A DNA stretch of 43,649 nucleotides from a virus. Of the stretch, positions 11,345-37,972 are shown in pieces. The first letter of the stretch is position 1; every line of letters begins with the position of its first letter. A model generated the notes under the pieces. The model saw only the letters and a list, made by a program, of their open reading frames with translations, had not been told where the DNA came from and did not search any database. The translations under genes and the position numbers were made by a program. The stretch spans positions 1-43,649 of the IMG/VR virus record IMGVR_UViG_3300046009_001268. The stretch is one strand, 5' to 3'.

Positions 11345-14300
11345 ATGATTGAAAAGCGTTCCTTCGAAGGCGGGATGAACCAAGATATGGAGGAGTCGTT
11401 GATTCCTGCTAACCAGTATCGCTTTGCCTTTAACATTAGAACAGGAGACTCTGGGCTAGGAGCCAAGGGTGTGGTCACTACCATTGAGGGAAACAGATTA
11501 GTTAGCACTACTCTGCCCGCTGGTGGTAATAGAGTTATTGGAACTGTTGACGATGACACGAACAACAGAACTGTATACGTTATCTACAACACAAGCGGTA
11601 ACAACAGAATCCTTCAGTACGACCACAGCGCTAACACCATCACCACCATCTACAACGACAGTGGCAATACGCTCAACCTAAATGTCAACTACCTAATCAC
11701 TGGTATTGACGTAGTAGTAGGAGAGCAAGATACATACTTGCTGTTCACTGATAACTACGGTGAACCTAAGAACATCAACATTGATGCAGGTATCCGCACC
11801 TTTGATACGGTAAAGAAGAAGTTCAAGGGATTGTGGGTAGCTGGTACGTTTGCTATACCTAATGATGTTTACTATATGGTCAAGCAGTTCCGCCAACCAA
11901 ACGGAACTAGCACCAACGTAAATGTTTACTATAGGTGTACTGCTGGTACGTCAGCAGACCCAGCCGCATCTGGAACACCAATGCCAAGTGATGGATGGGA
12001 GTTGTGTCCTTCTGGGTACATTTACACCGCTGTAAATGAGGAGTATACAACTGCTATCGTAAAGCCACCTCTAAGCCCTCCCGTGGTTCAGTACAGCACA
12101 AACTCAATAAAGGGATTTAACAACCTGACTGGTTCTTTGTGGCAATTCAAGTATTGCTATGTTGCAGAAGATGGTAGAGAGTCTGCTTGGTCTCCTGTTA
12201 GCACGTTTGTAAATCCATTTACTAGGGCTGATTCAAACTATTTTTCTGTTGTTCGAGAGCCTCAGTACAAGAACAACGAGCTTAATGTATTTGTTGAGGT
12301 TCCAGACTTCATCAAGTATAGATACATTAAAGTTGCCGTCAGAAAAAACAATGATGATAATGCACCTGGTGACTTCTACCTGACAGATAAGGTAGACATT
12401 TCAAACTTGGCAAACATTATGTCTACTGACCCAACTGGTGGTTCGAACTATAAGCTGTATGCTCGCGTTACGTTTGACAACTCTGGCAATCTACTTCCTA
12501 TAAATGCCCAGCAGTCTAATCAATTGTTTTCTTGGATTCCCGTAAAGGCAAAGGCTCAGGCCATTACCGACAAGAACAGAATCATTTACGCAAACATTAC
12601 TGAGGGTAGAGATTTAGACTTAGAGGGTCCGTACGGATTTAATAAGAGACCTCCAATTGCTGAAATGTTTGAACGGAGTAATCCGTTTCTGGTCCAGACA
12701 GTAACCAATCAGAAAACCACAAACGGGGGTTCTTCTGTGGCTTCATTGTCGTCAAATGAAATAGCTACAAACTTATACATACCTCAGCTATACAACTCGG
12801 GAGCTTCATTAAACGGTGCCGTTATTACTCTGCCTTCTACAATGACAATAGGTTTGCCAGTATCTCTTACTGTGATACTTAGGTATTCTTATATTGACCC
12901 AACATTATACAACCCATCATTTATAACTCAGTCTTATACTGAAACATATATACCAGCCACAACATCTACTACGGACGCGTTAAACTACTTTGTTAGCAGG
13001 TTTAACAATAACGTGATGTACAATTTCTCGGATGGTTTTCTTGGTCCCAACGAATTTACTGTATTTACATTAAGCGCATCTTCAGATACTGTAAACAGAA
13101 GATTGTTTTTATATCCAAGAGCTCCGCAGACCGTGTATACAGATAACGGCTTAAGCTCAACTGTATATACTGTACTGAGTGACTTGGTAATTCTAAATAG
13201 AGATTACCCAATCCAGTCATTCAAGCGGGGTGCTATGCACGAGTTTGGAATTGTGTATAGTGATAAGTATGGAAGACTGTCTTCTGTAGTTACTAGTGAC
13301 GCTCTTAAGTTAAGCTCAAGATGGTGGAGAGACAGAACCGTAAGTGGTGCATCTGTTGGTATTGCTGGCAATGTCTTAAATGATATAGGTCAGCGATATG
13401 TTAAACTAAGTCTCAATCACGATGCTCCAGAATGGGCTGAGAAGTTCTATATCGTTAGAACAAAAAGGAATGGACTGAAGAGATACGTTTCTTTGGCTAT
13501 GGCTAAGCAGACTTTTCTTGGTAAGAGGGCAAGTAAAAAGAAAGACCAAGAGAACTCCATAGTTTTCAATGAACTTAGTGGTAAGTTTTTCTATAGAGGT
13601 TATATCGCGGGTAACTCAGTTGAAGTCCCAGGAACTGCTACTTCTTATACCCCAACAACTGCCACATCTCTTGCTGGGTTTGAGGCAATATACATTCCCC
13701 TTAACTCTCTTACTAATCTTTACAACGCTTCTTATAGCGACATAGCAGATACACAGATAGGTTACTCATTTACTCCTGGTGATAGGCTTAGGTTTGTTTA
13801 CAGATTTGCATCAACAAATGGTAACCCAAATAACTCCAACAACTTTGCTGAAACAAATCTAGATGTAGAAATACTTTCCTACTTCCCAGAATTAAACTGT
13901 ATAGCAATAAGGTCGTCAGACCTACCAGCTTATGTACTTAGCGGAGGTTCTGCAGGTCAGACGATGGATGATGTGTTCAACAAAAATAACGAATCTGACT
14001 ATACAGCTGTTGGTAATGTATTGTTTGAGATATACACACCAGACAATGACTACACATCTGAGTACTACTATGAGATGTACTCTGGTGATATTGACAAGTC
14101 TGTTCCTGGTAGGTATCTTCACAAGGGCAATATAACAAATCAGTCAACATCAACACCAGCCGTTATTGAGCTGGCAAATGGTGACACGTTCCTAAAGTTA
14201 CGTACGTATATAGTAAACCTTGACAATACATCTTCTTCTGCTGTGTCCGCATCTAACTCTAAGAACTTCTACTTAGAAGATGCGAACTACTACGATAAGA

Positions 14301-15754
14301 CTTCATCTAAAAGTTGGGGAGCTGGAAGACCTAATGTTATTATAAAGAACTCATCTCAGACTGACGAGTATGCTGGTACTATCAAGGCATACACCCGCCC
14401 AACAACGATGAGGTACTCTGAACCATTGCTACCCAATCAGGGATTCAATGGACTCGGAACAATATACGACACATCATTCGAGGATGCGAATCCATCGCTT
14501 CGCTCTATTCAGTTGTTGCATACTGACGGGGGAAAGACGTTTGTATTCCACGAGGATGCTGTTGGCGTAATGCAGAATGACAGACAGGTGATTACCACTG
14601 TTGATGGACAGAACCTCAGCATCGCAGCGAATACTCCTATCTCTGACATTACCTACTACAATACACGTGCTGGCATCGGGACCAATCCCGAGAGCTTCGC
14701 GTATATGAATAATAGAAAGTATTTCTTTGATGTCGACCAAGGACAGGTCTGCCGCCTATCAAATGATGGGATTACTCCTATCAATATGTACGGTATGGAC
14801 AGATACTTCAAGCAAGTATCTCGTGGAATGAATACAAATGCTGTTGCTGACTATGCCTTCGGTGGTTACGACAAGAGATTCAATGAGTATATCCTTTCCT
14901 TTAGAATAGGTGGATTACTTACATACACCCCAGGAGAAACTTCTTTGGGTCCAGATAGGATTACTATAAATATTGATAGGTCAATATTCGATGTGTTCAT
15001 TGGACAGGTAACTAAAATTTACCTACCAGCAGTTCCAGCATCTACACAAGCTCCAGTTGAATACGAGATATTTGCATCTGCCCTACCTGGGACAAGTGGA
15101 GTCACGTATACAATGTCTGTAAAAGCATTCTTGGACTTGGGTGTAGTGCTTACTGCTGGACTTAATTATCAAATCGGAGTATACACTAACCAGACTGTAG
15201 CCTTCAATGAAGATGCTAATGCTTGGTCCTCCTTCTATAGTTACATCCCAGATATGATTTCATCTGCTGGTGTTGAGCTTGTTACTTACAGAGCTGGTGC
15301 TTTGTATGTTCACGATGCACCAAGCAGCCCTATGAACTTCTACGGTGTGGCTCAAGACGGATACATTGACATTGTGTCTAATGCACAGCCCGCACAAGTA
15401 AAGGTGTGGAACACTATGTCACTCAACACTCTGTTCACTAACGAGACTGGTGTAGATACTATGTCTATACCATCCACGTCAGCAACAATTGTAGACCAAG
15501 CTATGCTATCTGGAGTTGTAACTAGTAATGGCTTATGGACTTCTGGCACTGGCTTCACCTATAAAGAACAGCAGGCGTTCACAGACTATATGAGAACCAT
15601 CAGTAGACCTACTGGACTGACTAACTTTATTGAAGGTGAGAAGGTTCGTGGCTTCTGGCAGAAGACTCGTATCAAGTTCGCTGCTGGTCAGATAACTGCA
15701 GCTAGAATTATCTCAGCTACATTTAATTATTTTATGTCTAATTATACAAGATAG
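11345..15754 (+). CDS. Giant tail protein, tail stabilisation / muzzle candidate
   Basis: This 1469-aa, beta-rich protein is rich in Thr, Ser, Asn, Tyr and Gly. Its start, FEGGMNQDMEESLIPANQYR followed by FAFNIR, is a pattern I associate with the large tail stabilisation or 'muzzle' proteins of crAss-like and other Bacteroidetes phages. Residues 1-200 contain repeated short strands with GDDD/N and TVYVIYNTS motifs, suggestive of a beta-propeller-like domain, which fits the family's tail hub. The middle (200-1000) is long and mixed. The C-terminal part again has propeller-like strands (for example PGRYLHKGN and later GGKTFVFHEDAVGVMQND). A role in the tail tube tip or hub that closes the channel until DNA ejection is expected. 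It follows the ring genes directly. No catalytic motif was seen. Confidence 0.6.
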   Translation: MIEKRSFEGGMNQDMEESLIPANQYRFAFNIRTGDSGLGAKGVVTTIEGNRLVSTTLPAGGNRVIGTVDDDTNNRTVYVIYNTSGNNRILQYDHSANTITTIYNDSGNTLNLNVNYLITGIDVVVGEQDTYLLFTDNYGEPKNINIDAGIRTFDTVKKKFKGLWVAGTFAIPNDVYYMVKQFRQPNGTSTNVNVYYRCTAGTSADPAASGTPMPSDGWELCPSGYIYTAVNEEYTTAIVKPPLSPPVVQYSTNSIKGFNNLTGSLWQFKYCYVAEDGRESAWSPVSTFVNPFTRADSNYFSVVREPQYKNNELNVFVEVPDFIKYRYIKVAVRKNNDDNAPGDFYLTDKVDISNLANIMSTDPTGGSNYKLYARVTFDNSGNLLPINAQQSNQLFSWIPVKAKAQAITDKNRIIYANITEGRDLDLEGPYGFNKRPPIAEMFERSNPFLVQTVTNQKTTNGGSSVASLSSNEIATNLYIPQLYNSGASLNGAVITLPSTMTIGLPVSLTVILRYSYIDPTLYNPSFITQSYTETYIPATTSTTDALNYFVSRFNNNVMYNFSDGFLGPNEFTVFTLSASSDTVNRRLFLYPRAPQTVYTDNGLSSTVYTVLSDLVILNRDYPIQSFKRGAMHEFGIVYSDKYGRLSSVVTSDALKLSSRWWRDRTVSGASVGIAGNVLNDIGQRYVKLSLNHDAPEWAEKFYIVRTKRNGLKRYVSLAMAKQTFLGKRASKKKDQENSIVFNELSGKFFYRGYIAGNSVEVPGTATSYTPTTATSLAGFEAIYIPLNSLTNLYNASYSDIADTQIGYSFTPGDRLRFVYRFASTNGNPNNSNNFAETNLDVEILSYFPELNCIAIRSSDLPAYVLSGGSAGQTMDDVFNKNNESDYTAVGNVLFEIYTPDNDYTSEYYYEMYSGDIDKSVPGRYLHKGNITNQSTSTPAVIELANGDTFLKLRTYIVNLDNTSSSAVSASNSKNFYLEDANYYDKTSSKSWGAGRPNVIIKNSSQTDEYAGTIKAYTRPTTMRYSEPLLPNQGFNGLGTIYDTSFEDANPSLRSIQLLHTDGGKTFVFHEDAVGVMQNDRQVITTVDGQNLSIAANTPISDITYYNTRAGIGTNPESFAYMNNRKYFFDVDQGQVCRLSNDGITPINMYGMDRYFKQVSRGMNTNAVADYAFGGYDKRFNEYILSFRIGGLLTYTPGETSLGPDRITINIDRSIFDVFIGQVTKIYLPAVPASTQAPVEYEIFASALPGTSGVTYTMSVKAFLDLGVVLTAGLNYQIGVYTNQTVAFNEDANAWSSFYSYIPDMISSAGVELVTYRAGALYVHDAPSSPMNFYGVAQDGYIDIVSNAQPAQVKVWNTMSLNTLFTNETGVDTMSIPSTSATIVDQAMLSGVVTSNGLWTSGTGFTYKEQQAFTDYMRTISRPTGLTNFIEGEKVRGFWQKTRIKFAAGQITAARIISATFNYFMSNYTR

Positions 15755-15785: not shown

Positions 15786-16391
15786 ATGGACCCAATCACA
15801 CTAGGACTATTGATTAAGGCAGCGCCAGCTTTGATTAAGGGCGGAACTGGTTTAGTAAACTCAGTAGTCGGAGGGATAAAGACAGGTCAGGCTCTAGACG
15901 AAATGGAGAGCACTGACTATAACGATTATACTCAGCAGTATTTCAACGAGTTACAAATGCGCGCGCGTCAAGGGCTACCTACTGAGTCTATGGACTACGC
16001 AGAGACTGGTGTTGACAGAGCCTTTGGCGCCGCGCAAAATAATATGGAGGACAGAAGAGCAGGACTGATTGGTCTTGGTCAAAGCTCTATGGGATTAGCT
16101 GACGCCTACAGACAACTGGCGGCACAGGACGCAGAGATGCGTGTGCAGAACCAACAGCAGATGTTGGGCGAGATGTCCAATAGAGCAACCAATACATATA
16201 ACGAAGATATGGGTATGGCTAACGTCCGCTTAGCTTTGGCTCGCGGTCAGCGTCAAGAAGGATTGGCTGGCACGGGTGCTGGTATGCAGACTTCTGTTAA
16301 CCAAGCTGGTGCAGCTATGGGACTTGGAGAAGACAATGGCGCTCTTGTTGATTTGTTTACAAAATTGTTCACGCAAAATAAAACTGCCTAA
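15786..16391 (+). CDS. Putative internal virion (ejection) protein
   Basis: This 201-aa protein starts with a hydrophobic, Gly-rich stretch (PITLGLLIKAAPALIKGGTGLVN, then VVGGIKTG) that could insert in membranes, followed by a mostly helical, Gln/Met/Ala-rich body (about 60-190). This composition and size resemble the small internal or ejected proteins of podoviruses (the T7 gp14 / P22 gp7 class), which line the channel into the cell during DNA entry. It is the first of three genes (201, 487 and 3381 aa) placed after the tail protein and before fibres, where ejection proteins are found in P22-like and T7-like phages. It is a family-type inference and was not matched by motif. Its start lies seven bases after a TAAATTTG element. 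Confidence 0.5.
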   Translation: MDPITLGLLIKAAPALIKGGTGLVNSVVGGIKTGQALDEMESTDYNDYTQQYFNELQMRARQGLPTESMDYAETGVDRAFGAAQNNMEDRRAGLIGLGQSSMGLADAYRQLAAQDAEMRVQNQQQMLGEMSNRATNTYNEDMGMANVRLALARGQRQEGLAGTGAGMQTSVNQAGAAMGLGEDNGALVDLFTKLFTQNKTA

Positions 16392-16396: not shown

Positions 16397-17860
16397 ATGG
16401 CTACACCAGATTCGCAACAGGCTATACAGACTATTCTAGCCACACGCAATACACCTACTGCTATTGACTACACTCCTATTGAGCGTGGTGCGGCAGTAAA
16501 GAGAGAGGCTGCTGGAAAGCAGATGGAGAAGATGAACGCCCTTATCGCACTGACTGCGCAGGAACTCCCTGCCCAGATGCAGGGGGATTTAACATCTAAT
16601 GTTAACTTACTTCTCCAAGATGTAAAAGACGGTAAGCTTAAACCAGATGATATTGACTTTACTACTCGTATGTATCAGCTTACTGCGAAAGCTGGTACGT
16701 ATAAGGCGAACTGGGAAAGAATGAAGGGAAGCCTTGCTGTTGACCCAACGACAGGAAGGAAGAAGTCATTAATCACTTTTGATGAAAGAGGGAATCCAGT
16801 TGACAAGATTGGTGACCTAGAGGCTGGACTTCTGACACTAAACAAGTACGACCCAAATATCAACACACAGGACTTTGTTGCTGAGCTTGATGGACTTGCA
16901 ACTAATGCATTGTACCCTATTCCGTTTTCTACTGACAATGTATTAAAAGATAGTAAGTCTTACTTCGACTTGAATGCGGATAAGTTAGCAAGCACAGCCA
17001 GGCTTGGTGTTGGTAAGGATAGAGAAACTACTGTTTCTATGCTTACTCCAGGGGATTATACTACATATGTAGGAACTTTAATAGACGCAAACAGGGCATC
17101 ATTAGCTGCTATGTATGCTCAAGATAGAGCGAATGGTAAGGTAGACCCAGAGAAGATGCCGTTCGATGACTACGCATATATGAAAATTTCTACTATTGTT
17201 CCGCAAAGAAGAACTGAGCAGAAGATTACTAGCACTCAATACTCACCGTTTGAAGTAAGTATGCAATCTGCTCTTGGTGCTGGTATGGGTCAGCGCCAAC
17301 TCGAGGGTGGCTTTGTTGCAGACGAGACTCCTATTGGAAACATACCATATGTTGCTCCAACTACACCTGGTAAAAGCCCTACAGTTCCTAAGGATGTTAA
17401 CAACTACTGGCGCTCAGCTGGTTTAAGTTTTGCTGACCCGAAAACTGGGGAAACAGTCTGGAGATATACTGTACAAGGCCAAGACCTTAATACCCAGGAA
17501 AAGACTACTGCTGGGCAGTTCAAGAACGTAACCATCAGTGCGCCTCCAGGTGTAAAGGAGAAGACGCTCAAGGTTACTACTGTTGATGGAGAAGTTGTTG
17601 ACGTATCTCCAAAGAATATCGTAGTAGACAAAAATGGTCGCGGTGTTCTTGTTGGTGTAAGTCAGGCAAAAGTAACCGAGAAGGGTGCTGTTGGTAAATC
17701 AAAAGATGGGGCTGATTTTGTCCCCACTGAAGCCACCAGAGAAAGTGCCGTGTTAAAAGAACACGTCATTAAGATGACCCCTGCTCTAATCAAGCGTGTC
17801 AATAGTACATTTGGAACTGATATTCTACAGGACAATAACGACCCATTTGGTATCCGATAA
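16397..17860 (+). CDS. Putative internal virion / cargo protein
   Basis: This 487-aa protein begins five bases after its neighbour. The N-terminal part (about 1-120) is helical and rich in Ala, Gln and Glu (for example ALIALTAQELPAQM). The middle is mixed and includes several repeated Asp/Asn-rich turns. The C-terminal ~150 residues look beta-rich (KTLKVTTVDGEVVDVSPKN). No signal peptide, metal site or enzymatic motif was recognised. Position between two putative ejection proteins suggests a cargo or internal head protein. Large internal proteins of podoviruses often come in threes of increasing size, as here (201, 487, 3381 aa). The role is inferred from context alone. Confidence 0.45.
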   Translation: MATPDSQQAIQTILATRNTPTAIDYTPIERGAAVKREAAGKQMEKMNALIALTAQELPAQMQGDLTSNVNLLLQDVKDGKLKPDDIDFTTRMYQLTAKAGTYKANWERMKGSLAVDPTTGRKKSLITFDERGNPVDKIGDLEAGLLTLNKYDPNINTQDFVAELDGLATNALYPIPFSTDNVLKDSKSYFDLNADKLASTARLGVGKDRETTVSMLTPGDYTTYVGTLIDANRASLAAMYAQDRANGKVDPEKMPFDDYAYMKISTIVPQRRTEQKITSTQYSPFEVSMQSALGAGMGQRQLEGGFVADETPIGNIPYVAPTTPGKSPTVPKDVNNYWRSAGLSFADPKTGETVWRYTVQGQDLNTQEKTTAGQFKNVTISAPPGVKEKTLKVTTVDGEVVDVSPKNIVVDKNGRGVLVGVSQAKVTEKGAVGKSKDGADFVPTEATRESAVLKEHVIKMTPALIKRVNSTFGTDILQDNNDPFGIR

Positions 17861-17875: not shown

Positions 17876-20800
17876 ATGGCTGAGCCTAAAAAATCTGTAC
17901 AGGAATTCGCACAAGCTATTAAGGCTAAGTATCCACAGTACAAGGATATTGATGACTACACCCTAGCTAAGAAGATTGTAGCCAAGTATCCTCAGTACGC
18001 TGATGCTGTCGAGTTCGACGAAAAAAAAAAAGCTTCTGGCGAACCGTCAGAGGAATCCGCTTCCGCTCCCCAATCTACTTTACCTAAGACTCTTGCAGAG
18101 ACTCGCCCGTCTGTTGCGCCGATTCAAGAGGTTGAGGAGGTTGATGAGTTTGCGAAGAATGTAGTAGACAGAAAGGCTGAAGCTAAGAAGGCTAACTTTG
18201 AAACCTCTGGTAGTATCAACACCAGAGTAAGACCCACCGCACTTCCTACTGGGGAAACCAAGGAAGAGGAGGATTACTTTACTGGAGGGTTCGGTCAGTT
18301 CTTGACCGCTATGAAGAGCCCCTTTAATCCAGTTGGTTCAGCTATTGCTGACTTCGTTGATGATATGGGTCGTGCTGTTGGTGCTGGTATGCAGACCTCG
18401 GCAACGGTGTCTCCATCTATGGAGCTTCTTGAAAAAGGCAGGAAGACTAGTGATGAAGATATCAATAAATATATTGAGGTAGCAAAGTCAGCACAGAAGA
18501 TTAAACCTTCTGATGAAATGCAGAGCTTTACCGACATCTACGAGAAAGAAGGTAAGGGTATATTTGGAGTTCTAAAAGGATTGGCAAACAATCCAACTGT
18601 TATCCCAGAGGTGATGGTGTCCAGTATTGCTGGTATGATAAACCCCAATTCTCTTGCTTCTGCTGGAGCTGTTATTGGTGGAGCTACTGCAGTTGGCGCT
18701 GCCACCACTGGGCCTGGTGCGCTAGTTGCTGCTGCAGGTTCATTGCCATTTGCTATGGGCGCAGCAACTGCTACTATGGAGGCTGGTCTTACATTCTCTG
18801 AGCTTCTTAATGAAGAGCTCACCAAGAGAGGTATGGACTTTACAAAGGATAACGTAAGAACTCTTTTGAATGACGAAAAGCTTGTGAGCAGCCTTCGTAT
18901 GCGTGCACTTGGTCGTGGTATGACCATCGGTGTTGTAGACGGTATGACTGGTCAGCTAGCTGGTAGTGTTGGAGCTAAGGCTGCTACTACAACAGCAGGA
19001 AAGGCTGGTCGTATTGCAGCAGCAGGTGGTATAGAGATGGCTGGTGGTTCTGCTGGTGAGGTTGCTGGTCGTGCTGTTGCTGGTCAGGAGATGGACGTTG
19101 CTGAGATTGCACTTGAAGGTATCTCTGAAGCTCCTGGTACAGTCGTTGACATTGCTTCCGTTGTTGGTAGTAGACCTAGCTACGTAGTAAACGGAGAGAA
19201 GATATCTGAAACAAAGATGCGTGACATTATGGACAACGCATCTCCAGCTGACTTGGCTGGTATGGACATCAAGATTAAGAACGACGTAAACAAATACGGA
19301 GAGAAGATTACTGATGCTGTTGAGACTGATGCCATTACCAAAGAAGTAAAGGCTACAGTACCAAACATCAGTGAAGAGAACGTCTCCCGCATTGTAGGTC
19401 TTGAGAAAGAACTAAAGAAGCTATCCACCGCCACCACGCAAACAGCTAAGGATAGAGTATCTGAAATCAAATCTGAAATTAAGTCCTTGCGTGAGCCTGC
19501 TGCACAGCCAGAAGCTGAGGTAGCATTAACCACTAAACAACAACAAGATGCCGTTCAAGAGCAAGCAGCAGGTGAAGTACCTGTACAGCCAGAAGCCGAA
19601 GCTGGCAGAGAAGTGGCGCAAGGAGAACCCCAAGCAGAACCTCAAGTCGCTACCCAAGAAGGTCTCACGGAAGAAGTCCAAGTAGAGACTCCAGCAGTTG
19701 ATGTAACTATTGAATCTCCGTTTGATGAGTTTGGTGAACCAGATTACGATGCGGAAGATGCTGTAAGAGAGATTGCAAAACAGCGCGACTTAGGAATTAC
19801 TAGTGATAGAGAACTTGCTACTGTTGCGCGAGACGCTAATGGCAATGTTATCGGAGGTGCGTTTACGTCATATGACAATAACACTGGAGAGTATACGTTT
19901 GATGTAGTTGTTTCTGAAGACGCCGAAGGAAAGGGCGTTGGCAGCAAACTGCTTGATGCTGTGAAGGATTTGCCTGGAGATTTACAGGATATGAATCCTG
20001 ATGCAAAGGTTAAGGTTGATGTTGTCAACCCTAATATGCAGAAGATGCTTGAGAAGCGTGGCTTCGTGGTAACTGAAAAGACTGGAGAGGATAGGGTTAC
20101 TATGGAGCCGTCTAGCCAAGTCAAGGAGCAGAAGACAGCAAAGCTAACCACTAAGAAATCTCCCGCACCTAAGGTTAAGAAGACTCAAGAAGAACTTGAC
20201 CTAGAGGCTCAAGAGCAACAGCTAAGAGCACTAGAGGATGACATCCAGATTGAGAAGGATAACTTCGTAGAGCGCAAGGCAGAGATTGCTGAGCAGATAA
20301 AGGAAGCTAGAGCCAGCAAACTTTCAGCGCCAGAGAAGGCGGAGCTTGTAGCAAGTTTAAGGGCTGAGCTGGAGGATGCGAAGAACGAATCTAACGCTAT
20401 CATCGGTCAGTACAGAGAAGATGCTAAGGCGCTTAAAAAAGATGTAGGTAAGGCGAAGGCCAAGCTACAAAAGAAAGTGCAGCAGGCGGCTCCTAAAGCA
20501 GCCGTAGAGCCTGTTGCTCCAGCTGCTCCAACTATGGAAGTTCCAACTATGGAAGCTCCTGCTGTTGAGGCTCCTGCTGTTCAACCATTCGCTCGCCCTG
20601 GTGTATACAGTCCTGCATACATCAAGACTAAGTTAGCTGAGGCGTACAAGAAACTTCCCACAAAGAAGTTCGTTGAGTTATTCAATAAGCACGTAGACTC
20701 TGGACTAACGGAAGATATTGCCAAGACATCCATTGGCAGAGACGGCTACGTCAACCTGTTCAACAGTGATGACTACGTTAAGTTCTTTAAGGATGCTGGT

Positions 20801-23800
20801 GTTCAGTTAGCTAAGGAGGAAGCTCCAGTAGTTACGGCTGAAGAACCAACTACCTCCCGCAAGACAGAAGCGGAGAAGCTAAGAGAAGCACAGAGAGCTC
20901 TCTTGCTAAAGTCTGGTATCAACCCAGACGTCCTCAACAGAAGAAGAATGGCTGACGGAACTCCCACGTTCAAGAAGCTTAGTAAGATAGCAGAGACGGC
21001 AAGAAAGGCAGTAGCCAAGATTATGCCCGACCTAAAGATTGTAGTATACAATGACGTAGCTGAATACTCCAGAGCTACTGGAGATGCTGAGCACGGACAA
21101 TACAATCCATCTACCAAGACTATCCACATTAACGGTACTCGTGCTACTCCATCTACGATAGCACACGAAGTATTCCACGCCGTATTCTTAAATAAAGTAA
21201 AGAACGACCCCACTGCCCAGCGCATCGCTAGCACTATGATAGAATCTATCAAGCGCATAGTAGGCAAGGACAGCGAAATCTATAACTTCCTAGAGGACTT
21301 CTCTAGCCAGTACAAGGATAACTTCAAAGACGAGGAGAAGCTAGCTGAGCTTGTTGCTATCCTGTCTGACTTCTACGCTGGCAACAGAACCTATGGCCTG
21401 TCTGAGAAGGCGATTCAGTCATTCAAGAATGCAATCAAGAAGTTCATCCAAGACTTTGCTGATGCATTTGGCATTGACCTGCAGACAAAACTTGACGATG
21501 CGCAGGTGATGGCTATGCTTAACACCATCGCCCGCAAGACAATATCGGGGAAAGAGATTACCAACGAGGACTTGGCTATCATTGACAAGTTGGTAGACAC
21601 TCCAGTAGGAGAGCAGGTACGTAAGGACGCACGTCAGCGCAAGGGACTTATTACATTAACAGAAAAGGATGTAATCAAGTACTCCAAGATTGGCGTAGTT
21701 GACCAGCGTATGGCTCAGGCTATGGAGAGCATCGGTCTGTCTGGAGTTAAGTTCACAGAGACTGGTGTCAAGGAAGCTGTGTCCAAGAAGTTCCTTGATG
21801 TTAGAGATGAGTATCTGAACAATGAAACCTATGAGGGTGAGATTCCATTCATCCACAAGGGGGGTCAGGCGATGAAGGAGTCCATCATCAACGAGGCAGA
21901 GACTGCATATGAGAGAAGTGATATCAGCGAATCCAAGAGAGATTCATTAATAAGAAATTCTGGAGATGAGATTTTCCAGAGAAAATATGTTGAAGAATAT
22001 GCGAAAACTCAGAAGCGTGAGATAGAGCGTTGGATTAAGTATCTTGAGCAGTCTAGCTATGACGATGCTTTCAAGTATATGATTTTTGATGCTGTTCTCA
22101 CATTTAACTACGACCTTAACACTGGGCAATACAAGAAGCGAGCTGCAGACACGATGCGTGGTATAACTACGTTCGACTCTGGTGTCCTGGCGAAACTGTA
22201 TGAGTCCGACTCCAAGGAACTGCTCAAGTCCTATGTTGAGTTAATGCAGCAAAACTCTGTTAATGTTGTTAAGGAGCACAAGTACCAGAGCACAGACAAG
22301 GGCACGTGGGTTAAGTTTGAAGGAGGTAGCAAAAATCCAGACCTTAATGAGGAGGCATCAGCTCTTTCTCAAATGGTTCAAGAGACTCCTTGGTGCACTA
22401 AAGAACTTGCTTACTCTCAGTTGAGTGGCGGTGACTTCTACGTATTCGTAACTGGTGAAGATAATCCAAAGCCAAGAGTTGCAGTTAGAATGTCTGGCAA
22501 AAGGGTTGGTGAAGCCAGAGGAATAGAGGGTGGTTCAAGTCAAGTTATTGAGGAAAGTATGCAAGATACCGCAGATAAGTTCCTACGTGAGGAAGTTACT
22601 GGCGGTGAGGAATACATACGCTCTATAGCATTTGCTAAAAATTTCAAGGCCCTAAAAAGTGACAACCCAAGGTTAACGAGAAAGACAATTGAAGACATCA
22701 AAGAGCTTTATAAATCAAGCAAGGTTGATTCTTCCAAGGTGGCAACATTCGTAAAAGATAAAATAAAGAATGATGAGGTAGACGAGGAAATTAAAGATGA
22801 GATTTTCTTTATGGATACCTCATCTGATATGCCTGGACCTAAGGTAAAATACATATTCAATGAAGCTGATGGTGCCCCGCTGACATTCTTCGGTATATCT
22901 GGAGAGTTTCAATTCGATGGTATTGAAGCATTCTTTGGTGACTTTATAGACGATTCTGGGGTAATCGGTACAGAGTTAATGTTCAATAACCTCACAGCTA
23001 TTTATGGTAATTTCAAAATAGATGCTGGGGGAACTATGAATTCAGAAGAGGCATTTATTCTACCTAAATTAAAAACCGTATATGGAAATTTAGAATATCA
23101 GGGTTCAGCTCCTTTAGAATTAACGCAGCTTGAGTCAATAAGTGGGAATCTAATCCTTAGAGATGGGAATCTAAATAAACGGTACGACGACTGGATTCGA
23201 GAAGATATCTTCCCTGTAGAGGATTTCAAATTAGAGAAACTTCCCGTGCTACTTCCATCTCTGAAGAGCGTTGATGAAGTTGTAATCTCTAACTTCAGTG
23301 TAGACCTAAACTATTTAGAGACTGTCAATTCAATAAGCGTAGATAACTCAACGCTAAAAAAAATAGGCATTGAAGATTACTCTGTCGCATTGCCGTCATT
23401 AAAGAGCATTAATGAAATAGATTTCTTTTCGTCTAGATTTATATCTGACTTGTCCTCTCTTAAGAAAGCTGAAAGAATCTATGTCTACAGTGGTGTCAAG
23501 CTTGACTCTCTTGAGTCTGTAAAAGAACTTAGGATAGAGTACGCAGATAATATATATGGAACAGATGATATTAGAAAATTATTAAATAATTTATCAACTT
23601 CCGATTCGAGCACTAGAGAAGAGGTACTGAAGAATCTATATGAGTACGTTGATGCTAATAACCTGTCACTTGAACTTCCGTCATTAAAAGAAGCTCAATC
23701 AATTTATGCAAACAACTCCTTGCTTAAGTCTCTTGGTGACCTTAAGTCAGTTGGTAATATATCTGTAGCTTTTTCGGAATCACTAGTTAATCTTGAATAT

Positions 23801-26800
23801 GTTTCTGGGGACCTGAACATATTAAAATTAGTTGGAGGGTCTATTGGTAAGCTTAGAGAAGTAGGAGGATTGTTTTATGTTTCTGGTATTAGCAGATTAA
23901 AAACTCCGTCTAAGCTTGAGAGGATTGGACGATTATTCTTGCCCCATAACGTAACTGGGGGTGGTATTTTCCCCGCCCTTAAGTCAATTGGTTCATTTGA
24001 TTATTACCCCTCAAAAAAACCATTCGCTGATATTTTCCCGTCTCTTGAAGAGATTGGACTACCTAACTTCCCTACTGTTGATATAACAACGATACTCAAT
24101 CATCAGTCAGAGAATCCAGAGGAGGCTCAGAGACTACTTGAGTCAAACAGAAAGCTGTATTTAGAGGCGGCTAAGGTAGAGAATAAAGAATACCTTGAAG
24201 ACATTGCAAACAAGACCTTCGACGCTCAGGTTGAACTGATTAGAACTGGTATTGAGTTAAATACTCAGGCACCACGCCAGCGTAAAGCGGACGGTAAGGC
24301 ACCACTCAAGCAGCGCATTGAAGAGATTCGTAAGGCAGCAGAATCCAAGCGTAACGAACGTATGGCTGCCCGAGAGAAGGGTATGAGTGAAGCTGCTCGT
24401 AAGTTCAAAGCAGAGCAAGAGGCTAAAGCTAAAGTCAAGCAAGAAGCTAAAGAGCAGAAGGCTAAGATAGAGACAGCAATGGATGGCTACATCAATGCTA
24501 TCCTTGAGTCTGGCAACGCTAAGACTATTGCTGCAGCATTCAAGAACTTCCAAGAGGTGGCAGGTAAGCTTGACAAGACTGAGTTCGTTCAGCAGTTAAG
24601 AAGAACCATTGCTAAACTCAAAGAGGATAAGCATATCAGCACCGTATCTGCTGGCAACCTTAACAGAATCCTACGTACCATTGAGCGTGTATCTCCCGCA
24701 ACCTATGCATTGGAGGTAGACAGAGCAATGAACGCAGTCAAGAAGGAGATTAACACTCAGCTAAGAAAGCAGCTGAACACCAACAGAAAGAAAGCACTGA
24801 AGAACATTCAGTCTGGACGCATTGGTAACTCCACCATCAAGCCACTGTTCCAACGTGTGCTGTCTATTGACGCCTCTATGATTCCTGATGAGTCCTTTGA
24901 TGACTACATCGCTATCGTTACACGCCTTGGTGCTAAACAGACTGTCCTCCCACTTGCTGATAGAAGAGCAATGGAGACTACGCTGAACAATATCCTTAAT
25001 AACATCGATGCAGAAGCTGGACGCCTCATTGAATTGGGTGAGATGTACAACGACTTTGTATCCTCTCGCAACTTGGGTGATACTCCGTATTCTGAAGTCA
25101 TCAATCAAATGAAGGGTGAGGGCTTAATTACCGAGGATGAGGTGAAGATGATGAAGCGTTACAAGTCCATCATCCTCAGTGAAGCTAAGGTAGCAAAGGC
25201 TGGCAAGAGAGCGGAGAGTCCAGAGGCACGTGCTGCCCTTGAAGAGGAGCTTTCCAACATCGACATCAACGTAAGAGCGCTAGAGAACAGAGACGACAGA
25301 GCTATCGCTACAGCTATTCAAGACAACCTGGATGCGGCTAGTGAGATGACCAGTCAAGACTTGCGCAAGTTACTGTTGGTAATAGACAACATCAACAACG
25401 GATTCCTTCCCCATATGGGTGAGGTTGTTCGTCGCAAGTTGGTGAGCATCAACGATGGTAAGAAGTTAGCGTCCGCACTGAACAAGGTATCTCTCCCACT
25501 TGGTGAGAAGATTATTGTAAACGTCAAGGGAGCCTTGATGCGCCTTATGGGTAGAAAGTCTACGGAGACTGGAACTGTTAGTCTTGCTGCTGAGCGTAAC
25601 CCCGCCGCATTCATTGATGAGGTATTTGGTAACTTCAAGACCACGCCTATCTATGACACGCTTATCCGCCCAATGGCTAGTGCGTTCTCTAGATTCCAGC
25701 GCGACTTTGATGTAGCTGTCAATAAACTAAACGCAGCCGAAAGAAAGCTATACGACTCCAAGAAAACAGACAACGAGTTCCGCTCTTCTATGTATAAGAT
25801 ACAGATGTACCTTATCCAACGAGAGTACGAGAGCAACGTAGGTAACCCAGAGGTTAGTCCCGCAACAAAGTGGATTAAGGCTACAATCGATGCTATTGAT
25901 GCTGGTAATATCTACAATGAAGCAACCGCTTCCGAACTAAGAGAACAGCTAACTAAGTTCTCTGAGGATGGTGAGGTATCCATAGAGAAGATAGAGAAGA
26001 GCTTGACTCCAGCGGAGAAAGGACTCATCAAAGCTATCGATGAGGTTAATGGCTCTATTAGAGATAAGGCTGTTCACGTATCTGATGTCATTCGTGGTGA
26101 GGGCATTGAAGCTCGTGATAACTACGTACACATTCAGGTTTATGGTGATGGTAAAGGAAGTCCGCTAGATGAGATAAGCAATTTCACTAATCGGTACACT
26201 CCATCTACCAAGGCAAAGTCTTTGATTACCCGTACTGGTCAGGTGAACCCAATCAACCTTGACCCATATCAAACTGCAGTACGCGGTTTGAAGATGACGT
26301 TGTTGGATTACTATATGACCCCCGCTATCAAGCAGGTTAATGGCACACTTGCCGAATCAAAGAATTTAATAGATTCTGGCTCAGAAAAGAATCTAACGGC
26401 AGTCAGTGAATTGATGAAAGGATTTAACCAAGGCGTTCTTGAAAACGCTGTAGGCTCTTCTGTATCTCCAGACATCACTGACACCTTGGTCACAAATGGT
26501 TACCGTGCTGTACTTGCTTCTGTACGCAGAGCAATCGCAGAGACTGCATCTAACATAACATTTGCTCTCGCTAACCCAGCGCAGTTTACTGCTGGTGTCA
26601 AGTCTTACTATAAGTTAGACAGCGATATCTCTGCTGGTGATGTACTGCGTAACGTGGGTTCTGTTCACACTACTAGATTGTTTGGCGGAGAGACACTCAC
26701 TAGCCCGATGGTAGAGAAGAGTGGATTCAGAAACACGGGTGGAGTTAAGACCGAGATGCAGCCTGATGTAATCAACAAGATGGCTAGAATCTCTAAGCTT

Positions 26801-28021
26801 GGAAGAATAGCAACTAACAAGATAGCTGATGTAGCTGACTTCTTAATGTCTACTCCTGATGCTATGGTCTCCCGCCCCATCTGGTTTGGAGCATTTGAGA
26901 ACAACTTCAAAGAACTCACTGGCAAGGAGCCAGACCTCAAGAAGATTTCCGACAACGATGAAGCTTATATGGAAGCTAACAGAGACTCCATCAAGAAGGC
27001 GTCTAAGGAAGCGGATAAGCAAGTAACTCAAGCAGCAGCTAGTAATAACCCATACGAGACTATTGCTAAGCTTAGAGTAAACGAAAAGGATACTAGCAGC
27101 AAGAAGATATACAAGGCAGTGAATGGTTTCATCTCCCGCTTTGCAATCTTTGAGTACAACACAGCAAGACGTGCCATCTACGCAATGATAGGCAATGGCT
27201 CCATCTCTAGAAAGGAAGGCGCCGCATTACTTACAGGGGTAGCTATGCGTTCTATCGTATACGTTATGGCCTCTAGCTACATCGGTGGTATAATGTCTGC
27301 ATTGGCTCAATCTGCTTTGGCAAACCTTGGATGGGCAGGACTAGAGGAAGAGGAAGAAGAAGATGACTTGATGGAAGCTATCTTGCCAAACGCAGATACT
27401 CTACCCAAGCTATACCGCTCTATTGGTGGCGCTCTTGCTAACATCTTCATTAACAGGAACTTCGGTAACGTAATCAAGAACATCAATGGTATGTTGGTGG
27501 AGACTGCTAATGAAGAGTACGGTCAGTTCTTACGCAACGGTAAAGACTATGACCCATTCGAGAACAACATACTTATGAATCAGCTGTCATCAGCGATGAC
27601 CCCAGGCAACTCTAACGAAAAGATTGCAAGCTTTGTTGCTGCATTCGCTGGTCCACTCAGTCCTGTGGCTAGAACATTCATTAGTACGTTCAAACTTGCA
27701 AACAGTGCGATAAACAACAAGACAGCTGCCAGTCGCAAGGAGAACTTAGACGAACTAAAGATTCGTGTTCCTTTGGAGTTTGCTGGTAACCTAGGTCTTG
27801 TCCCAGTTTACAATGATGTGCGTAAGATGACTTTGGATTATTTTCGTGACGACCTCAATAAAGAGAAGGACTTCCGCCAAGAAGTAAAGAGGTTAATTAA
27901 TCAGTACCCTAACGGTGGAGAGAAGTTCGAAAAGGAGATGGACAAGACGTTCGCCAAGTACACCAGATTCAAAACTAGACAAGCTATAAATAAACAAAAA
28001 GAACTGCTAGAGGATAACTAA
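17876..28021 (+). CDS. Giant polyvalent virion protein with GNAT, zinc peptidase and LRR-like regions
   Basis: At 3381 aa this is by far the largest gene. Regions in order: two KAKYPQY/VAKYPQY repeats (residues 17-41); a Gly/Ala-rich hydrophobic segment (about 240-305); a GNAT acetyltransferase-like domain (about 614-745) with the acetyl-CoA loop-like EDAEGKGVGSKLLDAV near 680; a charged coiled coil (about 765-880) and a Pro/Ala linker; an HEVFH zinc site (1097-1101) with a likely third ligand in DEEKLAELVAIL; a module with TPWCTKEL and GGDFYVFV (about 1490-1540); LRR-like or beta-solenoid repeats (about 1658-2067); long helical coiled-coil regions; and hydrophobic segments near 3120. Combining such unrelated domains in one chain is the mark of 'polyvalent' proteins injected with phage DNA to act on the host. 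The specific activities are predicted, not shown. The gene follows two ejection-protein candidates. Confidence 0.65.
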   Translation: MAEPKKSVQEFAQAIKAKYPQYKDIDDYTLAKKIVAKYPQYADAVEFDEKKKASGEPSEESASAPQSTLPKTLAETRPSVAPIQEVEEVDEFAKNVVDRKAEAKKANFETSGSINTRVRPTALPTGETKEEEDYFTGGFGQFLTAMKSPFNPVGSAIADFVDDMGRAVGAGMQTSATVSPSMELLEKGRKTSDEDINKYIEVAKSAQKIKPSDEMQSFTDIYEKEGKGIFGVLKGLANNPTVIPEVMVSSIAGMINPNSLASAGAVIGGATAVGAATTGPGALVAAAGSLPFAMGAATATMEAGLTFSELLNEELTKRGMDFTKDNVRTLLNDEKLVSSLRMRALGRGMTIGVVDGMTGQLAGSVGAKAATTTAGKAGRIAAAGGIEMAGGSAGEVAGRAVAGQEMDVAEIALEGISEAPGTVVDIASVVGSRPSYVVNGEKISETKMRDIMDNASPADLAGMDIKIKNDVNKYGEKITDAVETDAITKEVKATVPNISEENVSRIVGLEKELKKLSTATTQTAKDRVSEIKSEIKSLREPAAQPEAEVALTTKQQQDAVQEQAAGEVPVQPEAEAGREVAQGEPQAEPQVATQEGLTEEVQVETPAVDVTIESPFDEFGEPDYDAEDAVREIAKQRDLGITSDRELATVARDANGNVIGGAFTSYDNNTGEYTFDVVVSEDAEGKGVGSKLLDAVKDLPGDLQDMNPDAKVKVDVVNPNMQKMLEKRGFVVTEKTGEDRVTMEPSSQVKEQKTAKLTTKKSPAPKVKKTQEELDLEAQEQQLRALEDDIQIEKDNFVERKAEIAEQIKEARASKLSAPEKAELVASLRAELEDAKNESNAIIGQYREDAKALKKDVGKAKAKLQKKVQQAAPKAAVEPVAPAAPTMEVPTMEAPAVEAPAVQPFARPGVYSPAYIKTKLAEAYKKLPTKKFVELFNKHVDSGLTEDIAKTSIGRDGYVNLFNSDDYVKFFKDAGVQLAKEEAPVVTAEEPTTSRKTEAEKLREAQRALLLKSGINPDVLNRRRMADGTPTFKKLSKIAETARKAVAKIMPDLKIVVYNDVAEYSRATGDAEHGQYNPSTKTIHINGTRATPSTIAHEVFHAVFLNKVKNDPTAQRIASTMIESIKRIVGKDSEIYNFLEDFSSQYKDNFKDEEKLAELVAILSDFYAGNRTYGLSEKAIQSFKNAIKKFIQDFADAFGIDLQTKLDDAQVMAMLNTIARKTISGKEITNEDLAIIDKLVDTPVGEQVRKDARQRKGLITLTEKDVIKYSKIGVVDQRMAQAMESIGLSGVKFTETGVKEAVSKKFLDVRDEYLNNETYEGEIPFIHKGGQAMKESIINEAETAYERSDISESKRDSLIRNSGDEIFQRKYVEEYAKTQKREIERWIKYLEQSSYDDAFKYMIFDAVLTFNYDLNTGQYKKRAADTMRGITTFDSGVLAKLYESDSKELLKSYVELMQQNSVNVVKEHKYQSTDKGTWVKFEGGSKNPDLNEEASALSQMVQETPWCTKELAYSQLSGGDFYVFVTGEDNPKPRVAVRMSGKRVGEARGIEGGSSQVIEESMQDTADKFLREEVTGGEEYIRSIAFAKNFKALKSDNPRLTRKTIEDIKELYKSSKVDSSKVATFVKDKIKNDEVDEEIKDEIFFMDTSSDMPGPKVKYIFNEADGAPLTFFGISGEFQFDGIEAFFGDFIDDSGVIGTELMFNNLTAIYGNFKIDAGGTMNSEEAFILPKLKTVYGNLEYQGSAPLELTQLESISGNLILRDGNLNKRYDDWIREDIFPVEDFKLEKLPVLLPSLKSVDEVVISNFSVDLNYLETVNSISVDNSTLKKIGIEDYSVALPSLKSINEIDFFSSRFISDLSSLKKAERIYVYSGVKLDSLESVKELRIEYADNIYGTDDIRKLLNNLSTSDSSTREEVLKNLYEYVDANNLSLELPSLKEAQSIYANNSLLKSLGDLKSVGNISVAFSESLVNLEYVSGDLNILKLVGGSIGKLREVGGLFYVSGISRLKTPSKLERIGRLFLPHNVTGGGIFPALKSIGSFDYYPSKKPFADIFPSLEEIGLPNFPTVDITTILNHQSENPEEAQRLLESNRKLYLEAAKVENKEYLEDIANKTFDAQVELIRTGIELNTQAPRQRKADGKAPLKQRIEEIRKAAESKRNERMAAREKGMSEAARKFKAEQEAKAKVKQEAKEQKAKIETAMDGYINAILESGNAKTIAAAFKNFQEVAGKLDKTEFVQQLRRTIAKLKEDKHISTVSAGNLNRILRTIERVSPATYALEVDRAMNAVKKEINTQLRKQLNTNRKKALKNIQSGRIGNSTIKPLFQRVLSIDASMIPDESFDDYIAIVTRLGAKQTVLPLADRRAMETTLNNILNNIDAEAGRLIELGEMYNDFVSSRNLGDTPYSEVINQMKGEGLITEDEVKMMKRYKSIILSEAKVAKAGKRAESPEARAALEEELSNIDINVRALENRDDRAIATAIQDNLDAASEMTSQDLRKLLLVIDNINNGFLPHMGEVVRRKLVSINDGKKLASALNKVSLPLGEKIIVNVKGALMRLMGRKSTETGTVSLAAERNPAAFIDEVFGNFKTTPIYDTLIRPMASAFSRFQRDFDVAVNKLNAAERKLYDSKKTDNEFRSSMYKIQMYLIQREYESNVGNPEVSPATKWIKATIDAIDAGNIYNEATASELREQLTKFSEDGEVSIEKIEKSLTPAEKGLIKAIDEVNGSIRDKAVHVSDVIRGEGIEARDNYVHIQVYGDGKGSPLDEISNFTNRYTPSTKAKSLITRTGQVNPINLDPYQTAVRGLKMTLLDYYMTPAIKQVNGTLAESKNLIDSGSEKNLTAVSELMKGFNQGVLENAVGSSVSPDITDTLVTNGYRAVLASVRRAIAETASNITFALANPAQFTAGVKSYYKLDSDISAGDVLRNVGSVHTTRLFGGETLTSPMVEKSGFRNTGGVKTEMQPDVINKMARISKLGRIATNKIADVADFLMSTPDAMVSRPIWFGAFENNFKELTGKEPDLKKISDNDEAYMEANRDSIKKASKEADKQVTQAAASNNPYETIAKLRVNEKDTSSKKIYKAVNGFISRFAIFEYNTARRAIYAMIGNGSISRKEGAALLTGVAMRSIVYVMASSYIGGIMSALAQSALANLGWAGLEEEEEEDDLMEAILPNADTLPKLYRSIGGALANIFINRNFGNVIKNINGMLVETANEEYGQFLRNGKDYDPFENNILMNQLSSAMTPGNSNEKIASFVAAFAGPLSPVARTFISTFKLANSAINNKTAASRKENLDELKIRVPLEFAGNLGLVPVYNDVRKMTLDYFRDDLNKEKDFRQEVKRLINQYPNGGEKFEKEMDKTFAKYTRFKTRQAINKQKELLEDN
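18021..18031 (+). repeat. A11 homopolymer in the giant gene
   Basis: Eleven A bases encode the end of Glu49 and Lys50-Lys52 of the giant protein. Such runs are prone to transcriptional slippage and sequencing error. A shift by one base either way gives a stop within a few dozen codons, leaving a short product that carries only the two KYPQY repeats. Confidence 0.9.
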
Positions 28022-28348: not shown

Positions 28349-30517
28349 ATGGGCTACGCAAACATACAGGCGGATAGTAACTTCTACCGCCAGAGTCTTA
28401 ATGCTGATGGTATTAAGGATGTAACTGGACCGTACACTTCTCTATATGAGGATGTGTTTCGTGCTATTACTGTTACTACCGATTCTGTAGTCTCTGTTAC
28501 TTCCTATGTGGGAGATAGTCTGTCCAGTCAGTTCTTGTTTGCGGGCACGGAGATTTATGGTTTGTTCTCGTCCGTAACTATTCATAGTGGTAATGCTATC
28601 TTGCACCTTGCTGGCGCATCATATATATCTGAGATTGTAAACCAGTACTCAGCGTCAGGTATTCCTTTAGGATTTTACGAGGAGGGTACTCAGTGCTTGA
28701 GTCAGAAGATTAGTGCACTGCTAACCCAGGGTGTCTTTGACGATGCGAGTTGGGTTATGGTTCCATCTCAGTATGAGGAGGATTGGGTACGTGCGTTTAA
28801 GCCTACGAGTGAGTTAGGTAACCTTGCCTTCACACGAAGTTCTGATGCTACGTTTACTGACTCTACTGGAGTTGTAAGACGTAGCCCCTGGAATTTGGTG
28901 ACGTTTAGTGAGCAGTTTAATAATGCTGCTTGGACAAAAGACAGAGTAACGGTAACGGATAACGTAACTACCGCCCCCAATGGTACATTAAGTGCGGATA
29001 AGATAGTAGATACTTTACAAGGCAATAACGCCTACCGTGTTTACAATGCAGTTACTCTTTCAGCAATCTCGTACAGCGCAAGTTTTTATGTAAAGGCAGC
29101 AGAGTATAGTTGGGTTTACATTCGCATCGGAAACAGCTTACGAGTTTGGTTTAACGTAACGACTGGAGTAGTAGGTGGTGCGGATAGTGGTATTGCTGGT
29201 AGAATTGAAAACGCAGGAAATGGCTGGTACCGATGCACCGCAATTATTACAACCGCAACAGCGGGAGGCGGCTTTGCTTTGCTTGGCCTAACAAATGCTA
29301 ACAACGTAGAAAGCTACACGCCAACCACTGGAGGTCAGGGCGTTTTTGTATGGGGCGCCCAACTCGTTGAAGGTACCGAAGCCCTACCTTACTTTGCTAC
29401 TACTGACAGATTAAATGTCCCCCGCTTAGACTATAGTAATGCAGACGGAACTCTGTCCACCTGTCCAAGATTACTATTAGAGCCACAGAGAACGAATAGT
29501 ATTCGTAATAGTTCTATGGTGGGAGCGGTGGCGGGTAGTCCTGGGACTTTGCCTACGAATTATACGAGTACTTCTGGCACATTAGGTTTAACCCGAACTG
29601 TTGTAGGCACTGGAACTGAAAACGGTTTACCATATCTTGAAATGCGTTTTAACGGAACCGCTTCAAGCACTGGGTCTATAAGAATTGCATTTGACGCAAC
29701 TACTGGAATTGCGGCTACAAATGGACAAACTTGGTCATTATCTACATATGTAAAAATAGTATCAAGCCCCAACGCACCTAATTCGTACGCTTTAATTATT
29801 CTTGAAAGAAATTCTTTTGGCAGCGGACTTGCTGAGGGTAGTGCTACAATTGTACCAACCACCTCGCAGCAAAGATTCACTTACACAAGAACAAATGCAG
29901 CTGGTGCCTGTGCGTTTGTAGAAACATTGATTGGTTTTGCACTTACAAGCGGAGCAACCTACGACTTCACCATCCGCATAGCTGCTCCTCAGATGGAACT
30001 CGGAGCCTATGCTACCACTTGGGTACCAACTACTACTGCTGCTGTAACGAGGATTGCAGACGCTGCCAGTAAGACGGGCGTTTCTTCTTTGATTGGGCAG
30101 ACGGAGGGGACTTTATTTGCGGAATTTGCTGTACCATTAAACGAGTCTATAACCCGTTCGCTTGTATTAAGTAGCTCTACCGTTGCTAATCGTGCTGCTA
30201 TTTCCACATTTGCGGGTAGTGTTTTTGCTCGTGTGGACGTTGGCGGAGTGAATCAAGTCAACTCCAATGCGACAATGACAGTTACAAATATGAATAAGGT
30301 GGCATTTCGTTACAAAGAAAACGACTTTGCCGTTTATGTCAATGGAGTTAAGGTAATTACCGACACAAGCGGTATCACTTTTCCAGCGGGAACATTAGAC
30401 CGATTTGCTTTCATCCAACCAGATTCGACATCTGCCTTTAATGGTACAGTGTCTAAAATTGCGTTTTATAAAACAGGATTAATTGATAGTCAACTTCAGG
30501 CACTCACAACTCTATAA
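28349..30517 (+). CDS. Tail fibre / receptor-binding protein 1
   Basis: At 722 aa this is the first of three related fibre genes. Residues 1-90 duplicate the preceding 88-aa protein. About 150-350 is a carbohydrate-binding-type jelly-roll region with WNLVTFSEQFNNAAWTKD and APNGTLSADKIVD. About 360-405 is a conserved cassette (PRLLLEPQRTNSIRNSSMVG). A variable region follows, then a second conserved cassette (about 535-592, TYDFTIRIAAPQMELGAYAT and SLIGQTEG). A LamG-like C-terminal domain ends LIDSQLQALTTL. The same layout is in the next two genes. Such 'SEQFDNAAW' and LamG-like domains occur in phage fibres that bind glycans. The variable segments between cassettes are the likely receptor-specific parts. 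No chaperone gene is recognised. Confidence 0.65.
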   Translation: MGYANIQADSNFYRQSLNADGIKDVTGPYTSLYEDVFRAITVTTDSVVSVTSYVGDSLSSQFLFAGTEIYGLFSSVTIHSGNAILHLAGASYISEIVNQYSASGIPLGFYEEGTQCLSQKISALLTQGVFDDASWVMVPSQYEEDWVRAFKPTSELGNLAFTRSSDATFTDSTGVVRRSPWNLVTFSEQFNNAAWTKDRVTVTDNVTTAPNGTLSADKIVDTLQGNNAYRVYNAVTLSAISYSASFYVKAAEYSWVYIRIGNSLRVWFNVTTGVVGGADSGIAGRIENAGNGWYRCTAIITTATAGGGFALLGLTNANNVESYTPTTGGQGVFVWGAQLVEGTEALPYFATTDRLNVPRLDYSNADGTLSTCPRLLLEPQRTNSIRNSSMVGAVAGSPGTLPTNYTSTSGTLGLTRTVVGTGTENGLPYLEMRFNGTASSTGSIRIAFDATTGIAATNGQTWSLSTYVKIVSSPNAPNSYALIILERNSFGSGLAEGSATIVPTTSQQRFTYTRTNAAGACAFVETLIGFALTSGATYDFTIRIAAPQMELGAYATTWVPTTTAAVTRIADAASKTGVSSLIGQTEGTLFAEFAVPLNESITRSLVLSSSTVANRAAISTFAGSVFARVDVGGVNQVNSNATMTVTNMNKVAFRYKENDFAVYVNGVKVITDTSGITFPAGTLDRFAFIQPDSTSAFNGTVSKIAFYKTGLIDSQLQALTTL

Positions 30518-30520
30518 CAT

Positions 30521-32575: not shown

Positions 32576-32576
32576 T

Positions 32577-36101: not shown

Positions 36102-36364
36102 GCGACATACATAAGTAGTCGCTTCCCCATCTCTTCGTTCAGAGTTTTAATAAGTCTATACAGTTTGCGGGACTGGGTCTTGACCTTCTCCCGCTCTGTT
36201 TTTGTAGACTCTTTGCCGAGGTTCTGATACATCTGTGCATCTAGGTGCAACAGCGCATCTACCTTAGCTCTGTCAACAGCCTGTGACTGCATAACTTTCT
36301 CTGCGATATCCTGCACCCTATCTACGGGCACATAATACTTGTCGTTAATGAGGTCTGTACTCAT
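36098..36364 (-). CDS. Unknown helical protein (88 aa)
   Basis: This is the last gene of the minus-strand operon. It is a mostly helical protein (two or three helices) with Gln, Lys and Arg in the middle (KTEREKVKTQSRKLYRLIK). No metal site, Cys cluster or membrane segment was seen. It overlaps the preceding phosphoesterase gene by four bases, so it is co-translated with it. The 3' end overlaps the convergent plus-strand gene by a few bases. Function unknown. Confidence 0.55.
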   Translation of the reverse strand: MSTDLINDKYYVPVDRVQDIAEKVMQSQAVDRAKVDALLHLDAQMYQNLGKESTKTEREKVKTQSRKLYRLIKTLNEEMGKRLLMYVA

Positions 36365-37542: not shown

Positions 37543-37972
37543 CCTGTGTTTCTTTTAGAAGCTCTTCCTTGAGCTTATAGATTGAATTCCAGTCACAAAG
37601 ATACTCCTTAGCGTACCTTTCTCTTTGTTCTTTCGTACCTGCGTCAAGCAAGGTATGCTCTTCTTGCGTTAAGAAGATGATATTCCTATCATACAAACGC
37701 AGCTTAGGGTACTTAGATTTAGGTAGCACGTGTGCGAAGGTAGAGGGGGAAAAAGAAACGGGCTTCCCTGATAAGAAGGAAACCCGCTCTCTTACATTCC
37801 ATAGTGTCTCGAAGAATGCCATCTCACCTGTCGGCTTACGAGATGTACTCATCTTTGTCTTCTTCAGTTTTGGGGTGGAGGAAGCAGCTGCGCAGTACTT
37901 GCACATCCCCTTGCTCCAGATGAGGGTTAGCTCACCACACCCAAGACACTCTTTAGGCTTTGCTCTCAGCAT
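37526..37972 (-). CDS. HNH endonuclease with N-terminal zinc finger
   Basis: This 148-aa protein begins with two CxxC pairs (C9-C12 and C24-C27), a compact zinc site. A helical Ser/Lys-rich stretch follows, and then a ββα-metal HNH motif: H81 in AHVLPKSKYP, N97 in RNIIFL and H106 in EEHTLLD. This combination resembles NinG-like recombination nucleases of phages, which act on branched DNA. It overlaps its neighbours by 17 and 20 bases. It probably acts in replication-linked recombination together with the other nucleases of this operon. Mobile homing HNH enzymes are an alternative, but the tight overlap and operon position argue for a resident gene. Confidence 0.7.
   Translation of the reverse strand: MLRAKPKECLGCGELTLIWSKGMCKYCAAASSTPKLKKTKMSTSRKPTGEMAFFETLWNVRERVSFLSGKPVSFSPSTFAHVLPKSKYPKLRLYDRNIIFLTQEEHTLLDAGTKEQRERYAKEYLCDWNSIYKLKEELLKETQDADSK

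Follow-up and report, generated by a model that had tools for sequence, protein, structure and literature searches.

An IMG/VR virus record of 43,649 bases, analyzed here over its whole length (the window), encodes in its virion gene cluster a 3381-aa modular protein, in which conserved scaffold segments and a zincin-like peptidase are combined with cassettes that differ between close relatives by insertion and exchange. We consider it likely that this giant is an internal virion protein that is ejected and carries swappable effector cassettes, in a podovirus with relatives among the phages of Bacteroidota. Judging from gene position only, it is probably injected together with the phage DNA. 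The window portal shows ~27% identity to portals of Cellulophaga, Flavobacterium, Tenacibaculum and Maribacter phages, which makes a host among the Bacteroidota probable. The giant gene and its upstream neighbors are:

11345..15754, + strand: virion structural protein of 1469 aa, followed by the three genes that form the trio (phrog_14478, E=2.3e-49)
15786..16391, + strand: small protein, 201 aa, in a gp14-like position (positional equivalent of phi38:1 gp99)
16397..17860, + strand: medium protein, 487 aa, in a gp15-like position (position and size conserved)
17876..28021, + strand: giant modular (polyvalent) protein gene, 3381 aa (ATG-to-stop open frame; syntenic giants in the elemo, phi38:1, Panino and ctfjg026 phages)

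The giant frame delineated in the initial annotation is uninterrupted from its ATG to its stop codon. Family scans placed the portal and other virion families upstream of it and tail families downstream. Three adjacent tail-like genes (28349-34370, + strand) contain related phrog_5939/phrog_34853 segments, as if duplicated, and a replication block with two exonucleases and a primase/helicase (36361-42472, - strand) is convergent to the virion block. Where the upstream DNA is long enough, most loci have a small and a medium gene ahead of the giant, and in 54 of the 86 loci a homologue of the 1469-aa virion protein lies close to it. The same small-medium-giant order is present in the elemo, phi38:1 and Panino phages, with further genes lying between in ctfjg026. 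In three loci (L069, L072, L083) giants of ~1,930-1,990 aa are preceded by ORFs of ~925 and ~165 aa in place of the usual pair. For the medium protein of the window, no family match above cut-off was obtained.

A search with the zincin profile matched 168 viral stretches, and the family counts given here are based on the best 80 of these 168 loci. In all 80 the zincin lies inside a giant ORF of 1,586-3,939 aa, some of these ORFs ending at the edge of the stretch. The family is thus large, with at least 80 IMG/VR loci sharing the same zincin in a giant ORF; a keyword search of the literature found no description of it. Among 31 scanned sister proteins, we detected the named domains LPD23 (7/31), DUF7178 (6/31), DUF3293 (3/31) and ART-PolyVal (2/31). 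One family member, L004 (4253-12406), contains an N6/N4 DNA methylase, and the zincin was not detected in it. Within the window giant, we distinguished the following segments:

17876..19522, + strand: scaffold at the N-terminus, aa 1-549, part of which (~aa 100-450) was exchanged (common to L003, L004, L032, L070, L081 and L084)
19709..20161, + strand: GNAT acetyltransferase cassette, aa 612-762, with EGKGVG at 684-689 (PF00583 above cut-off; missing from L003, where its flanks are joined)
20933..21595, + strand: zincin-like metallopeptidase domain, aa 1020-1240, with HEVFH at 21164-21178 (family alignment, AlphaFold2 model, fold match)
21863..22795, + strand: WCT module, aa 1330-1640, with TPWCT at 22385-22399 (shared with 13 further distinct ORFs; AlphaFold2 model; a distant PcfJ-like fold is possible)
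22823..24115, + strand: LRR-like repeats of a degenerate LxxLxxV type, aa 1650-2080 (more repeats than in any of 1000 shuffles)
24266..25135, + strand: helical coil segment, aa 2131-2420 (L003 has a second GNAT-like cassette inserted at the upstream edge of this segment)
25124..27892, + strand: all-helical scaffold at the C-terminus, aa 2417-3339 (phrog_32588, E=4e-116, aa 2575-3328)

The zincin is the fixed hub of this architecture. The HEVFH motif at aa 1097-1101, previously read as a zinc peptidase signature, indeed belongs to a zincin-like core: its H, E and H residues are each conserved in 80/80 aligned family rows, and two candidate ligands downstream of HExxH, E1153 and E1154, are conserved in 77/80 rows each. 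The best fold match in the PDB was a weak one (E=0.54, prob 0.72) to selecase, which we take to be a minigluzincin of the zincin group; the fold search gave no match under E=0.001, and no credible match was obtained in a PDB sequence search with the zincin profile. The AlphaFold2 model of aa 1020-1660, with pLDDT mostly 78-93 near the motif, comprises one helix, three strands and the HExxH helix, along with additional helices, and thereby reproduces the helix, three strands and two helices of the zincin core as described in PMC5512222. In the fold test that had been set in advance, the zincin core was therefore seen by structure prediction, and the GNAT domain was recognized by profile. Among proteins whose N-terminus is complete, the zincin is found at places ranging from ~aa 470 to 1540.

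The acetyltransferase-like domain, originally placed at about aa 614-745, was recovered by the Pfam profile PF00583 at aa 636-730 (E=1.4e-5, 25.8 bits, above the curated cut-off of 20.7 bits), in agreement with the PHROG acetyltransferase families. The acetyl-CoA signature of GNAT proteins is Q/R-x-x-G-x-G/A; here both glycines are kept and E684 occupies the usual Q/R position, so that acetyltransferase activity is uncertain. The cassette was not found in any other examined member of the giant family. In L003, the nearest relative, whose C-terminal protein region is 92% identical, the two flanks of the cassette join directly, with DNA identities of 85.6% and 96.0%, and relative to this genome the window GNAT is a clean insertion in the aligned sequences. 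L003 has inserts of its own: one of ~115 aa precedes the zincin, and another, of ~210 aa, follows the repeats and is labeled GNAT-like by its GKGxG motif only, with no Pfam match.

Synonymous divergence between the window giant and L003 changes abruptly along the chain. The dS value is 0.09 over the zincin segment (aa 894-1317), rises to 0.87 over the WCT segment (aa 1318-1600) and to ~1.6, near saturation, in the LRR-like repeats, and falls to 0.17 in the coil. A smaller jump occurs in the N-terminal scaffold, where dS runs 0.05 / 0.43 / 0.08, with the middle value at ~aa 100-450. Because synonymous divergence jumps locally, the comparison points to exchange of the WCT-LRR cassette by recombination with a divergent allele. 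The dN/dS ratio is 0.14-0.29 over the compared segments and 0.17-0.29 in the exchanged modules, and such low values (<0.3) indicate that the WCT-LRR cassette is under purifying selection. Simple diversifying selection on the LRR-like repeats was rejected, since their dN/dS is 0.29 and the dS jump points to recombination.

The TPWCT/GGDFYVF module proposed in the initial annotation holds as a conserved unit, and its extent is about aa 1330-1640 and not 1490-1540. TPWCT (aa 1504-1508) and GDFYVFV (aa 1519-1525) are both retained in 13 further distinct ORFs (L003, L016, L047, L077, L091-L093, L096, L097, L100-L102, L103), and the strand core was modeled with a pLDDT of 77-95. The long LRR-like repeats suspected after it are likewise real in the sense that they exceed chance, with 6 pattern matches at aa 1650-2090 against 0.22 expected and a maximum of 3 in shuffled sequences (n=1000); they are of a degenerate LxxLxxV type without a Pfam LRR match. 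Repeats come after the WCT module in most copies, including regular LGNLxxIGG arrays in L047, L077, L091-L093, L096 and L103, and none are obvious in L100. The largest giant seen, a 4577-aa ORF in L091 (1791-15524), contains a zincin, the WCT module and long regular repeats. L103 (5227-7452) is a Clostridia MAG contig that may be a prophage; its WCT module and LGNL-type repeats lie in an ORF truncated where the contig ends.

Scans of Pfam, NCBIfam and PHROGs returned no named family for the WCT module and the LRR-like repeats. PcfJ-like proteins were among the viral fold matches to WCT, and the WCT core has the strand order of the PcfJ family (PF14284) and, when aligned with it by hhalign, keeps the register expected (P=7e-4, above 30 column shuffles, with a probability of only 26%). 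In contrast to PcfJ, the module has WCT in place of HCV, and Pfam PcfJ gave no match in the giant at E up to 5. We therefore treat a distant PcfJ-like fold as possible and as a lead only. In tblastn searches against 50,697 phage records, neither the GNAT cassette nor the WCT-LRR region had a match. Together with the absence of the GNAT from other examined family members, this agrees with the earlier impression that the exact set and order of domains had not been described, within the sources searched.

The remaining parts of the chain are the scaffold segments, which are common to the window giant and L003, L054, L062 and L084. The model of the C-terminal part is all-helical but of low confidence (mean pLDDT only 58). 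A viral fold search with this low-confidence model returned mostly unnamed or polyvalent-labeled giants, and a PDB sequence search with the C-terminal profile gave no credible match.

From these data we infer packaging, ejection, self-cleavage, acetylation and target binding for the giant. The conserved, largely helical scaffold (N-terminal part, coil and C-terminal part) would serve to package the protein and to send it out of the virion before the DNA, and slots between the scaffold pieces would hold interchangeable cassettes, the GNAT in slot 1 and the WCT and LRR-like modules in slot 2. Lying between the slots, the zincin would cut the chain and free the cassettes in the cell (or earlier, at packaging), after which a host protein would be the substrate of the GNAT, and the WCT-LRR module would serve to bind a target in the host. 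This reading is favored by the invariant H-E-H of a zincin always found in a giant ORF, by the virion neighborhood and the conserved trio, and by the name ‘structural protein’ of the elemo ortholog, which is an annotation label there and in phi38:1. It is also favored by the shared scaffold, by the likeness (below cut-off) of the phi38:1 small protein to T7 gp14, by cassettes that change between near-identical flanks, by dS jumps accompanied by low dN/dS, by LPD23 and ART-PolyVal in sister proteins and by the DNA methylase of L004. Precedents exist for ejection of the N4-like vRNAP (PMC10925440) and, as a proposal, for zincin processing (PMC5512222). Counted against this reading are a window small protein unlike the gp14-like family, E684, the low C-terminal pLDDT and the weak fold match of the zincin.

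For the zincin in particular, processing of its own chain appears as likely as an attack on the host, and PMC5512222 allows both roles for polyvalent proteins. That the domain is an effector cleaving host proteins and not a processor of the giant chain is a tentative alternative, consistent with its quite different neighbors and variable place in the chain. However, it is the most strictly conserved element while the adjoining cassettes change, as expected of a shared processor, and it has no known host target. A purely structural or core protein, with GNAT and WCT-LRR as inactive decorations or folding ballast, is improbable: the degenerate GNAT signature and the large all-helical scaffold would fit it, but purifying selection on WCT-LRR, the invariant zincin and the enzyme-type cassettes of sisters (methylase, ART) argue otherwise. 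We also regard it as unlikely that WCT-LRR is a receptor-binding or tail module. Although its divergent alleles are swapped as for host-range genes, and the L103 repeats are similar to a protein of a Synechococcus phage that has a tail fiber annotation, the window has separate tail/fiber-like genes (28349-34370), and WCT-LRR lies mid-chain, after the zincin and between scaffold parts. Returning to an ejected chain with swappable cassettes, we further suggest, speculatively, that WCT-LRR might be a new recognition-effector cassette, common to phage groups and the Clostridia MAG contig and traded within a self-cleaving injected protein. If so, close relatives would deliver different effectors.

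Among known systems, the co-oriented trio is comparable with T7 gp14-gp15-gp16, and with gp73-gp72-gp71 of the N4-like phage DEV, in which the giant vRNAP (gp71; 3,398 aa) was found to be ejected (PMC10925440). The likeness of the window giant to the vRNAP is one of position, order and size; no homology to gp16 was found at meaningful confidence, and no RNA polymerase or transglycosylase family was matched in the giant. The small protein of phi38:1 (gp99) matches Pfam T7_gp14 end to end, below the cut-off (E=0.0059), and the window small protein had no family match and was not found by a profile of its relatives' small proteins; we therefore suggest a similar role to the T7 and DEV ejection sets, not membership in them. 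Crassvirus cargo proteins (PMC10172136) are large helical proteins of a Bacteroidota podovirus and are stored in its virion, as the window giant would be; they include RNA polymerase-related proteins, and no such domain was found here. The syntenic Flavobacterium elemo phage protein (QMP85339.1, 3694 aa, labeled structural protein) shares the zincin, at 34.6% identity over aa 1033-1236, and a related C-terminal part; it has DUF3293, and GNAT, WCT and LRR were not detected.

The closest parallel is with polyvalent proteins (Iyer et al. 2017, PMC5512222), as the initial annotation had supposed, and this assignment is well supported. The window giant is a very large phage protein with several functionally unrelated domains in one chain (GNAT, zincin, WCT, repeats), its gene lies among late/virion genes, its cassettes are swapped around a zincin hub, and its sisters carry LPD23, ART-PolyVal and a DNA methylase. 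The two GNAT families of PMC5512222, compared by their reported occurrence, come from other bacterial groups, and the WCT-LRR cassette differs in matching no named Pfam, NCBIfam or PHROGs family. The class of polyvalent proteins is already known; what the sources searched did not contain is the WCT-LRR cassette, its exchange and the present architecture. They define an unnamed module in a large and barely described family of giant virion-cluster proteins of environmental phages, and the comparison of two close relatives shows, within one polyvalent protein, both the insertion of a cassette and the exchange of alleles, which makes the idea of swappable effectors testable.
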